DNA of 64,000 nt from the NCBI RefSeq assembly GCF_019090165.1, contig NZ_JAHRIB010000208.1, forward strand, positions 1-64,000, read 5' to 3'. The translations under genes were made by a program, and so were the position numbers. This DNA is from Streptomyces sp. BV286 (GTDB lineage: Bacteria; Actinomycetota; Actinomycetes; Streptomycetales; Streptomycetaceae). Positions 46,126 to 61,651 of the stretch are shown here, piece by piece. The notes beneath the pieces are model-generated. The model ran no database searches. It worked only from the letters and a program-made list of their open reading frames with translations, and had not been told where the DNA came from. Positions within the stretch are counted from its first letter, which is position 1. Each line of letters starts with the position of its first letter.

Positions 46126-47145
46126 TCATACGCGCTCGCCGAGTTCGGGGTCCTGCGGCTTGCGGGCGTCGTGGAGACGCGGACGGAGCGGCGCCGGCGC
46201 CTCCTCGGACACTGTCCCGGCGGTCCCCTTGCCCCGTGCCTCGGCGACCGCGAGCCCCGCGACCGATCCGAGCATCAGCAGGGTGCCCGCGACGGTCGCC
46301 GCGGTGATCCGCTCGCCGAGCAGCCCGACGGCGAGCACCGCCGCGCTCACGGGTTCGAGGAGCATGATCACGGAGACGGTGGCCGAGCGGACGACGGCCG
46401 CACCCGCGAAGTACAGGGCGTAGGCGAGGGCGGTCGGGACAGCCGCCACGAACGCCAGCAGCGCGACGACCCTGACGGGTTCCGTGGTGTGCGGTACCAG
46501 TCCCTCGGCGAGAGCGAACGGCAGCAGGCACAGGGTCGTGACGGCGAACGCCCCCACGGTGCCGGCCGACGCGTCGACGCCGCCGCCACGCCCCCACCAG
46601 CGGGTCAGCAAGGTCATGACGGAGTAGCCGACGGCGGAGACGACCGCGAGCGCGATCCCCCACGGCCGGACCGTCGCGTCCCCGCCGCCGAGCACCAGCA
46701 CCGCGAGCCCGGCGAGCGCCCCGGCGACGGCGGCATGTCCGGCCCGCCCGAGCCGCTCTCCCATGGTCAGCCGCGCTCCGAGCGCGATGAGCACAGGCCC
46801 GGCGCCGAGGGTGACGACGGTGGCCACCGCCAGTCCGGTGGCCTCGACGGCGGCGAAGTACGCGGTCTGGAAGACCGCCAGCCCGATGCCCGTGGCACCG
46901 GTCCGCAGCAGGCGGGTACGCAGCCGGGGCCGTGCGAGAGGGTGTGCCAGGCGTCGCAGCGACCGGACGGCGAGCAGCAGGGCCAGGCCGCCCGCGCAGC
47001 GCCAGAAGGACAGAGTGACGGGGCCCATGTCGCTCGAGCGGTAGACGAGCGCGGCGACCGCGCCCGCGGTGCCCCAGGCGGCGCCGGCGACGGTCAGGTA
47101 GAGGAGGCCTCGCCCGAGGGGCAGGCCGGAGACGGCATTCGACAC
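46126..47145 (-). CDS. EamA/DMT family transporter
   Basis: A 339-residue DMT transporter with ten hydrophobic segments, starting '[20 protein letters not shown]' and with '[20 protein letters not shown]' in the second repeat, both typical of the RhtA-like EamA group. GTG 47145 is chosen because GGAGAG lies 4-9 nt before it. It is the second DMT gene in tandem with 47498-48580. About 300 bp upstream begins a candidate leaderless leader peptide with an attenuator-like hairpin, suggesting translational attenuation by an amino-acid signal. Export of an amino acid or metabolite is the family-level inference. Confidence 0.9.
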
Positions 47146-47403
47146 GTGTTCTCTCCGCAGATCCGCAGAAGTTCGGGAAAGGACCACGTCCAACGCCGTG
47201 CAGACAGCACGTCAGCGCTTCAGCGGCGTGCGCCGCCGCGGGACGGGCGGCCGTCACGCGCGGCAGGCGGCACGAACACGACGATCACCACGAGCACGGC
47301 GGTGGCCACGGAGATGGCAGTCGATGTGAACGGGACGTCGCCGAGAGCACGGCTGTCGCTTCGGCACGGAGGGTCCTCGGACTTCGTCCGCGGGCAACAC
47401 CGG

Positions 47404-47428
47404 CGCGCCCGGCCGGTGGCCGGGCGCG
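47404..47428 (-). promoter_or_regulatory. attenuator-like hairpin in the leader of the DMT gene
   Basis: An 11-bp perfect GC stem (47404-47414 with 47418-47428) and a 3-nt loop, lying 17 bp after the stop of the 13-codon leader ORF and 258 bp upstream of the transporter start. Competing antiterminator pairing could not be evaluated by eye. Confidence 0.5.
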
Positions 47429-47445
47429 GGTTCCGGACGGCCCGC

Positions 47446-47487
47446 TCAGGCGGCCGGAGGCGGAAGAACGAGAGCGTTCGAATGCAT
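47446..47487 (-). CDS. candidate 13-residue leader peptide
   Basis: An ATG ORF of 13 codons translating to MHSNALVLPPPAA, followed by TGA. It carries Leu(CTC)-Val(GTT)-Leu(CTT) then three Pro codons; CTT and GTT are rare third-base-T codons in this GC-rich genome. A TTGTCG-N18-TAGGCT promoter places the transcript start at or near the A of its ATG, so it would be leaderless. A hairpin follows 17 bp later and a DMT exporter gene lies about 300 bp downstream. The arrangement resembles ribosome-mediated attenuation leaders. No experimental support; a chance ORF is possible. Confidence 0.45.
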   Translation of the reverse strand: MHSNALVLPPPAA

Positions 47488-47494
47488 GATCAAG

Positions 47495-47524
47495 AGCCTA
47501 GACCGCGGTTCCCCGTCCCGACAA
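47495..47524 (-). promoter_or_regulatory. promoter for the leader peptide and DMT gene
   Basis: On the minus strand, -35 TTGTCG (47519-47524), 18-bp spacer and -10 TAGGCT (47495-47500), 7 nt before the leader ATG. The -10 box overlaps the stop codon of the upstream DMT gene. Confidence 0.6.
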
Positions 47525-48580
47525 CTCCCTTTCGGCGTCCCCCGCGGCACGCGCCCCGGGCTCCTGCGAGCCCTCCCCCGCCCCCGGTTCCCCCGGCGCC
47601 TGCGAAGCATCCGCCGGTGTCTGCGAGGTCTTGGCCGGCGTGGAGGTCTGCGCGATCAAGGCACCGCACAGCACGACCGCGCCGCCGATGATCTGGGGCG
47701 CCGAGAGGTGCTCGCCCAGCAGGACCCAGGCGAGCACGGTCGCGACGACCGCCTCCAGGCACGCCACGACCCCCGCCACCTGGGGCGAGAGCCTGCGCAC
47801 CGCCAGGACGCCGGTCATGTAGGCGACGACGGTCGCGATCAGCACGATCCAGCCCAGCAGCAGCGAGGCCGCGACGGCCGTTCCGTCCAGGGCCGCCGTG
47901 CCCGCGAGGACCGACCAGTCCATGCCCCACGGCCGCGCGACGACCGTCAGGACCAGCGCACCGACGAGCAGTCCGTACGCAATGACGCCGAGCGGGGCCG
48001 GCGCCTCCTCGCCCGCGTCGCCGCCCTGGTCGGACAGGACGAAGTAGCCGACCTGGCAGCACGCGGCGCCGAGTGCGAGCAGCAGTCCGAGGACGTCGAA
48101 GCTCAGCCCCGCCCACACTTCGACGACACAGGCCAGACCACCGACGGCGAGGACGACCCCGAGGGCGGCGGCACGGGTGACGGGCCGGCGTTGCACGAAC
48201 CGCACCCAGCCGAGGAGCAGCGCCGGCGCGAGGTACTCGACGAGCAGCGCGACCCCGACGGGTATCCGGGAGATCGAGGCGAAGTAGAAGGCCTGGACGC
48301 CGGCGACGGCCAGCAGTCCGAATCCGGCGAGCAGCGCGGGGCGTTCACGCACCAGCCGCCGGTGGCGCACGGCCAACGGCAGCATGACCAGCGCGGCACC
48401 CGCGACGCGCAGCCACACCACGTGCAGAGGGTCGAGGCCCGCCTCGATCAACGGCTTGGCGGCGACACCGGATCCACCGAACGCGACCGCGGACCCGAGC
48501 GCGAGCCCCAGGCCGATGCCCCTGCCGCGGTTGCCCTGACTGCTCTCTGACGTATGCACCATGATGACAGGCGATGACAT
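47498..48580 (-). CDS. EamA/DMT family transporter
   Basis: A 360-residue DMT transporter, unlike the one at 46126 in sequence but with the same ten-helix plan: 'LGLALGSAVAFGGSGVAAKP' begins repeat 1 and 'QIIGGAVVLCGALIAQ' ends repeat 2. A Pro/Thr/Gly-rich, cytosolic tail of about 45 residues follows. ATG 48580 is chosen because GGGGGTG precedes it; ATG 48562 is possible. Homologues in actinobacteria export amino acids or aromatic metabolites. Its 3' end carries the promoter of the next transcript. Confidence 0.89.
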   Translation of the reverse strand: MSSPVIMVHTSESSQGNRGRGIGLGLALGSAVAFGGSGVAAKPLIEAGLDPLHVVWLRVAGAALVMLPLAVRHRRLVRERPALLAGFGLLAVAGVQAFYFASISRIPVGVALLVEYLAPALLLGWVRFVQRRPVTRAAALGVVLAVGGLACVVEVWAGLSFDVLGLLLALGAACCQVGYFVLSDQGGDAGEEAPAPLGVIAYGLLVGALVLTVVARPWGMDWSVLAGTAALDGTAVAASLLLGWIVLIATVVAYMTGVLAVRRLSPQVAGVVACLEAVVATVLAWVLLGEHLSAPQIIGGAVVLCGALIAQTSTPAKTSQTPADASQAPGEPGAGEGSQEPGARAAGDAERELSGRGTAV

Positions 48581-61339: not shown

Positions 61340-61540
61340 TCATCTCAACCTGAGAGCTTCACCGGCCCGCCACGAGGGCGCGCCGACTTTCACCGTCGGT
61401 GAGAGCAGCATCCGTCGAACACCCGTACACCGCTCTGCTTTCCAGAGTGACCTCGTCCGTGCGGTACGTGAGCCTGAGAGATTCCGGGGAGGATTTGCTC
61501 CTTCGGCGCCTCCGATGAAGCCTGGAGGACTCTCCCGCAC
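61340..61540 (-). promoter_or_regulatory. tandem glycine riboswitch
   Basis: On the minus strand, aptamer 1 starts with GTGCGGGAGAGTCC (61540 downward) and contains the family-typical 'GCCGAAGGAGCAA' and 'GGAATCTCTCAGGC' segments. Aptamer 2 has 'GACGGTGAAAGTCGGC' and ends with 'GAAGCTCTCAGG' near 61348. The two aptamers and short linker end 75 bp before the gcvP ATG, so the riboswitch controls gcvP, usually switching expression on when glycine is abundant. Confidence 0.93.
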
Positions 61541-61651
61541 GGGGTCAGCAGCCGTTGCCCAGCGTACCAGCGGGGTTCCCTCGAGTGGCCGCCCTCCTCA
61601 AAGTGCTCTTTCGTAGTGCTTACGGATGAGTTGCGAGCAGCTGGAGGGCCC

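Follow-up and report, generated by a model that had tools for sequence, protein, structure and literature searches.

The locus described here lies on the minus strand of the window (the whole stretch of Streptomyces sp. BV286 DNA that was analysed, 64,000 nucleotides long), where a short leader separates two genes of the EamA/DMT type. The upstream gene will be referred to as DMT1 and the downstream gene (DMT2) as the exporter. In the direction of transcription, the features are as follows:

47498-48562, minus strand: upstream gene DMT1 (EamA/DMT), whose end carries the promoter
47519-47524, minus strand: -35 box TTGTCG, within the 3'-terminal part of DMT1
47495-47500, minus strand: -10 box TAGGCT, 18 bp from the -35 box, overlapping the TAG stop codon (47498-47500) of the upstream EamA gene
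47446-47487, minus strand: mini-ORF MHSNALVLPPPAA-stop, 13 codons, with its ATG at 47487, 7 nt after the -10 box
47461-47486, minus strand: segment 0, the mini-ORF stretch that can pair with the exporter translation-initiation region
47439-47455, minus strand: hairpin 1:2 over the end of the ORF and its stop codon (47449-47455 with 47439-47445)
47404-47428, minus strand: central hairpin of 11 bp (47418-47428 with 47404-47414), 17 nt past the mini-ORF stop
47387-47395, minus strand: segment 3, GCCCGCGGA, whose partners are segment 2 directly after the stop codon (47440-47445) or the Shine-Dalgarno (SD) region of the exporter
47134-47158, minus strand: exporter translation-initiation region, with the SD CGGAGAGA (47150-47157), the GTG start codon (47143-47145) and the first codons
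46126-47145, minus strand: exporter gene DMT2 (EamA/DMT; Pfam PF00892, E 2.5e-24)

An initial annotation of this DNA had described a promoter, a 13-codon ORF, a hairpin and an exporter gene, and each of them was found at the place given. The initiation region (47134-47158) is the predicted pairing target of both the mini-ORF and segment 3. The leader in the window is unusually long: 300 nt separate the ORF stop from the exporter start, most of 167 leaders having 99-215 nt, and extra GC-rich sequence lies ahead of the exporter (47146-47386). A scan against Rfam 15 detected no family above its gathering score at the element, so a known Rfam family was ruled out as its identity. Elsewhere in the window (61452-61547, minus strand), a glycine riboswitch aptamer is found with 69.2 bits, its gathering score being 32.

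A DNA search with a 401-bp query matched 26 of 41 genomes, a figure that includes matches to its coding part. Distribution was also examined with a covariance model (R1) derived from an alignment of 16 relatives, which covers the mini-ORF and the hairpin and was used with a cut-off of E <= 0.01. Matches were detected in 219 of 295 sampled Streptomyces genomes, in 183 of 245 genomes of the order sample (181 of the genus and two from other genera of the family) and in 23 of 246 genomes of the class sample, five of these outside the order; the three samples overlap. The arrangement is thus far from a chance occurrence. The idea of a multicopy regulon was rejected as there is one strong match per genome. 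Second matches in genomes G150 and G274 have no Pro-Pro ORF nearby, and the second match in G465 is a single element split by an inserted repeat. Below, we refer to 170 distinct elements, obtained from 185 nhmmer loci by keeping those with an ORF, merging duplicates and excluding L118. L118 is a further matching locus with ACG in the position of the ATG, and its start codon may have been lost.

An EamA/DMT gene follows all 170 elements (167 recognised by motif search, three by eye), in agreement with the initial annotation, which placed the leader ORF before a DMT exporter. Among the 167 starts called by motif, 164 are at 77-300 nt; three lie at implausible distances of 39, 399 and 473 nt. In two of the cases judged by eye, L095 and L096, the EamA gene looks interrupted or shortened. 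When the search was made from the protein side and followed by the model, the element was found ahead of 77 of the best 80 exporter orthologues kept from named genomes, a count to be read knowing that the model itself was built from Pro-Pro-bearing elements. A regular-expression count at the same 80 orthologues gave 70, and is biased because Pro-Pro served as a filter. In the three orthologues without the element (L234, L241 and L263), inspection by eye showed that the whole leader is gone and that the exporter lies directly behind DMT1, so control of the exporter has apparently moved to the operon of the upstream gene; the Leu codon of DMT1 at the -35 position is CTG or CTT in these loci, not TTG.

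The exporter was absent (E <= 1e-30) from 35 of 37 Streptomyces genomes negative for the model. It is present in the other two, preceded by a Pro-Pro mini-ORF of more divergent sequence; divergent mini-ORFs were found using Pro-Pro as a filter, so the independent evidence there is not Pro-Pro itself, it is the complementarity described below. All 13 element-positive genomes tested have the exporter. Comparison of the exporter with solved structures yielded nothing at E <= 0.001, and comparison with NCBIfam yielded only amino-acid-transporter matches below their cut-offs.

A TAnnnT hexamer stands 7 nt before the ATG in 152 of the 170 elements, 8 nt in 11 and 6 nt in 2; five elements lack it. 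Of the 165 elements with a -10, 143 also have TTG as a -35, every one at a spacing of 18 bp although several spacings were tried. The spacing is compatible with a transcript starting on the A of the ATG. The ATG is conserved where a leaderless transcript would begin, which agrees with the leaderless arrangement initially proposed.

The -35 box is written by a Leu TTG codon of DMT1 and the -10 box by its TAG stop codon, and relatives without the element have other synonymous codons at the promoter positions of DMT1. In L013, L014 and L016, examined by eye, DMT1 is present with a different gene behind it and CTG replaces TTG, and the end of DMT1 codes for nearly the same residues without TTG and TAG. 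Since these loci keep DMT1 and have neither mini-ORF nor exporter, the view that the element is part of DMT1 was rejected. The view that DMT1 is part of the switch was rejected as well, as L094 has the element and the exporter with no DMT1 upstream (by eye).

The mini-ORF varies in length, with 11 codons in 63 elements, 12 in 26, 13 in 80 and 15 in one. Pro-Pro is found near the C-terminus, two to three codons ahead of the stop, in all 170, and is preceded by another Pro in 162 and by Ser in 8. The sixteen relatives have VLPPPAA as their core, or a sequence close to it (for instance VLSPPAA); some elements have the Leu of the core substituted (IVSPP, VTPPP). Stop codons interchange (TGA 105, TAG 52, TAA 13), the Val codon is found in four forms (GTT 77, GTG 39, GTC 31, GTA 20, with Ile ATC instead in 3), and Pro codons vary synonymously with the amino acid retained. 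The preservation of the frame across different lengths, stops and synonymous changes indicates that a translated frame has been selected at the C-terminal end of the peptide, a pattern typical of a conserved leader ORF that is probably translated. An alignment across Streptomyces had been suggested in the initial annotation: the ORF and the Pro-Pro are kept, whereas length (11-15 codons) and Leu number vary. Peptides with no Leu (one element), one (51), two (115) and three (3) are found, which speaks against sensing of Leu or other branched-chain amino acids when Pro-Pro is present in 170 of 170. Of the amino acid signals originally suggested, the proline one survives in the form of the Pro-Pro motif and the branched-chain or Leu one does not.

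Certain T-ending codons are strongly overrepresented. CTT is found in 126 of the 170 elements and makes up 1.4% of Leu codons in exporter genes; for GTT the figures are 77 elements and 1.8% of Val codons, and CCT is the second Pro codon in 110 elements, compared with 4.9% of the Pro codons of exporter genes. Among Pro codons, CCU and CCC are translated more slowly (PMC8129111). The rare T-ending codons had been interpreted as control codons. They are indeed enriched, yet they are located in the stretch complementary to the purine-rich ribosome-binding site of the exporter, and we attribute them to the need for such bases in the strand opposite the SD. That they slow the ribosome as well is conceivable.

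The main point of this work, missed in the earlier reading, is that the RNA of the mini-ORF is complementary to the SD and start of the exporter. In the window, nucleotides 47461-47486 pair with 47134-47158 in a duplex with a computed energy of -23.5 kcal/mol, and pairing of the initiation region with the ORF has a computed probability of 0.80; in the minimum-energy fold, the ORF:start stem closes the structure (z -2.9). By computation, the ribosome-binding site of the exporter would thus be hidden by this pairing. The register places the 5' part of the ORF opposite the start-codon region and the V-L-P-P part opposite the SD.

Pairing across genomes was calculated for 158 leaders: three of the 170 have uncalled starts, three have starts at an implausible distance, four have wrongly called starts (L076, L156, L188, L195), and two lack a recognised segment 3. 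These leaders fall into two sequence groups, A (n=102) and B (n=56). Over the whole ORF, the mean energy was -17.5 kcal/mol for native pairs and -15.3 when partners were shuffled (0 of 200 shuffles as strong), a control that leaves shared ancestry in place; shuffling the bases of the ORF gave -11.2. The excess was seen both in group A (-18.6 vs -17.5) and in group B (-15.6 vs -14.0), with 0 of 200 shuffles as strong in either, and also when the 5' part of the ORF and the start region were considered (-10.6 vs -9.6 in group A and -6.6 vs -5.8 in group B, 0 of 100 in both). Eleven more divergent loci, from Streptomyces and other genera, gave -19.6 vs -16.8 (0 of 500). A control stretch within the exporter gene showed no excess pairing with the ORF over shuffles; the stretch just ahead of segment 3 paired with the ORF core better than shuffled. 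The initiation region is not in every case the best partner of the ORF: on average, 19% of other windows equal it in group A and 29% in group B, and it ranks among the top 2% of windows in 20 of 102 and 10 of 56 leaders, respectively. The reach of the complementarity, which includes both SD and start codon, points to control of translation initiation.

Other helices were also examined. Hairpin 1:2 is paired in 98.0% of 880 cells (147 sequences), and its outermost pair is GC in 75, CG in 37, UG in 16, GU in 4, UA in 1 and unpaired in 12. Sliding this hairpin by +1 column gave as many double changes and a slightly higher covariation score, and its pooled duplex energy was weaker than that of partner shuffles. 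In the central hairpin, with 7 bp counted, 90.6% of cells are paired and 6 of 7 pairs show changes on both sides. The pairing of segments 2 and 3 is found in 98.3% and is nearly invariant; it carries little information because it hardly varies. Group A has a three-way structure that segment 3 completes by pairing with the SD; 91.7% of its cells are paired, and it shows 48 double-change cells, most of them in the inner hairpin, compared with 17.9 in shuffles. Two of five measures for this structure fell within the shuffles (116 and 38 of 500), and the 3:SD pairing itself is nearly invariant, with 2 double changes. Group B showed no 3:SD pairing above shuffles. Two sets of leaders were used: A3, with 92 of the 98 group-A leaders listed (L105, L147, L159, L172, L184 and L186 were omitted as short or odd), and A4, with 147 of 158 leaders (the first 150 minus L105, L159 and L172).

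The hairpin had been proposed to act in attenuation, for which an intrinsic terminator would be one solution. The longest T run behind the hairpin, within -12 to +25 nt of the first base of the segment that follows it, is 1 in 116 leaders, 2 in 40 and 3 in 2. With such short runs in 158 of 158 leaders, a U-tailed terminator was rejected.

Attenuation as the likely logic is supported, in the form of a control of translation initiation that would be exerted by ORF:start pairing. We consider a translational attenuator of the DMT-type exporter to be the best explanation, and a probable one. A sigma-70-like promoter within the end of the upstream gene would place the transcript start on the ATG of the mini-ORF or very close to it. 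In the resting fold, the ORF RNA would mask the SD, the start codon and the first codons, located 77-300 nt downstream, leaving the exporter untranslated; a further segment, past the central hairpin, is complementary to the SD as well in one of the sequence groups. A ribosome slowing at the invariant Pro-Pro would cover the ORF, undoing its pairing with the SD along with the hairpin at its end, and would thereby open the exporter start, turning the exporter ON. If the ribosome finished and left quickly, the ORF RNA could fold back, turning it OFF. Conservation, an open frame, a promoter, the invariant Pro-Pro and the co-varying complementarity are established at the level of sequence comparison. 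We infer that the ribosome stalls at Pro-Pro and that stalling would raise, not lower, exporter expression; the trigger might be a shortage of EF-P activity or of charged tRNA-Pro, or a compound that targets the ribosome. A more specific version, which we put forward tentatively and with less than even confidence, is that of a polyproline attenuator: a leaderless mini-ORF would gauge the passage of ribosomes over Pro-Pro and release an exporter of the offending or surplus compound. Its input would be the activity of EF-P, the charging level of prolyl-tRNA or a compound that delays the formation of such bonds, and the coding RNA of the mini-ORF would itself be the strand that masks the exporter start.

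Folding calculations are consistent with this attenuator in part. On average, the initiation region was unpaired with a probability of 0.30 in free leaders, 0.38 with a ribosome footprint at Pro-Pro and 0.29 with a control block (n=169); the gain from 0.30 to 0.38 is small, with a Wilcoxon p of 6e-16 (n=169). Under other folding settings, the SD was unpaired with a probability of 0.19 in the free leader, 0.23 with the ribosome at Pro-Pro and 0.26 with the ribosome at the stop codon, and 29 leaders favoured Pro-Pro and 59 the stop codon. A ribosome at the stop codon is therefore at least as effective, and the folding model leaves the position of the pause unexplained. Pro-Pro slows ribosomes and EF-P relieves the delay, and Leu-Pro-Pro-Pro and Ser-Pro-Pro-Pro are weak stalls in E. 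coli (PMC4176338). A Leu or Ser before such a motif fits either a conditional pause or no useful pause.

The last observations also bear on a reading in which stalling frees segment 3 to pair with the SD, thus switching the exporter off, or in which translation of the mini-ORF is enough, with no conditional stall, to keep the exporter site open, the Pro-Pro merely tuning dwell time. The effect of a ribosome at the stop codon in the folding model and the weakness of LPPP and SPPP stalls in E. coli (PMC4176338) are in its favour. However, Pro-Pro is kept in 170 of 170 elements although the codons around it and the ORF length are free to change; this points to a function of the motif over and above its translation, and we regard either variant as unlikely. 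Little probability can be given as well to transcription attenuation, in which the hairpin (or Rho) would stop transcription unless the leader ribosome stalled, in the manner of trp/leuS-type leaders or of CruR. The conserved ORF, the GC-rich hairpin 17 nt past its stop and the mutually exclusive helices 1:2 and 2:3 would suit such a device, and Rho-dependent control by an upstream ORF with a C-terminal RAPP is known (PMC9426467); against it are the T runs, which do not exceed 3 in any of the 158 leaders, and a co-varying complementarity that extends to the SD and start codon of the exporter, superfluous for a terminator.

The two remaining alternatives concern the ORF itself. If it were untranslated, a by-product of an ordinary structured leader or of an uncharacterised riboswitch, the strong RNA structure and the base pairing of certain conserved Ala codons would be accounted for; the survival of the frame through length changes, the interchange of three stops and the synonymous variation of Val and Pro codons make this very improbable. 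The amino acid attenuator of the initial annotation, sensing Leu or Val, draws on the Val-Leu that most elements have ahead of Pro-Pro-Pro and on the rare CTT and GTT codons. This we consider extremely improbable, as Leu number ranges from 0 to 3 and the core Leu is replaced in some elements (IVSPP, VTPPP), the rare codons are explained by the complementarity, and the controlled gene codes for an exporter rather than a biosynthetic enzyme.

By analogy, the control logic of the putative attenuator appears nearest to the LEU element of leuA, and the design of its peptide nearest to CruR. In the LEU element of Actinobacteria, pairing is predicted between the SD box and a run of Leu codons ahead of leuA, a biosynthetic gene, and a pseudoknot has been proposed (PMC1262725). 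In contrast, the element described here has Pro-Pro and an exporter, and its predicted pairing runs across the SD, the start codon and the first codons; there is no Leu run (0-3 Leu) and an EamA gene takes the place of leuA downstream. The CruR upstream ORF of Bordetella pertussis likewise has a Pro-Pro near its C-terminus (RAPP, three residues before the end), and stalling turns on downstream transport genes (PMC9426467). CruR is, however, a copper-sensing DUF2946 protein of ~145 residues that acts, in the account given there, by Rho-dependent termination and with no SD occlusion (PMC9426467). MHSNALVLPPPAA has neither a CXXC copper motif nor RAPP. The terminator hairpin with a U tract found in leaders of the trp/ilv/leuS type is also missing, T runs being 1-3 in 158 of 158. 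Such leaders have a run of codons for the amino acid that their downstream genes make; in the element described here, the invariant run is Pro-Pro and an exporter gene follows.

In translational attenuators of the ermC/cat type, an antibiotic-triggered stall on a leader peptide frees a hidden ribosome-binding site, the SD being hidden by a separate segment. Here, the hiding strand would be the ORF itself. Pro codons of the mgtL leader ORF make the Salmonella transporter gene mgtA responsive to EF-P (PMC6460261); those codons are interspersed, the effect is at the mRNA level, and both the transporter family and the bacteria are others (PMC6460261). Leader peptides of 12-29 residues, most of them leaderless, have been described in S. 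lividans (leuL, ilvL, trpL, alaL, thrL, metL; PMC8079986). The eight peptides listed in that source serve amino-acid genes or a Met importer, and none of the eight matches this sequence or precedes a DMT exporter (PMC8079986). Searches of an open-access library of papers turned up no description of such an element, and the peptide string VLPPPAA matched no paper there.

If the interpretation is right, the element would be a polyproline-translation sensor, widespread in Streptomyces, that dispenses with a separate anti-SD segment. Streptomyces proteomes are rich in Pro-Pro motifs (PMC8129111); a leader that reads Pro-Pro translation would therefore show how Streptomyces watch that process. The element would also provide a handle on the substrate of a DMT exporter common in the genus, as an agent that slows Pro-Pro should induce its own export. 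A leader whose coding strand doubles as the mask of the next gene's start would tie together codon choice, peptide and RNA structure.

Additional observations involve individual loci. Palindromic inserts are found directly after the mini-ORF stop in L295/L299 (G465; ~150 nt) and, in a shorter form, in L284 (G099), and spacing at this position therefore seems free to grow. In G414 (contig C198), L298 is a divergent second copy with the mini-ORF MQLFLTPPPPAA before another EamA gene, whose start region also looks complementary, by eye, to its mini-ORF.
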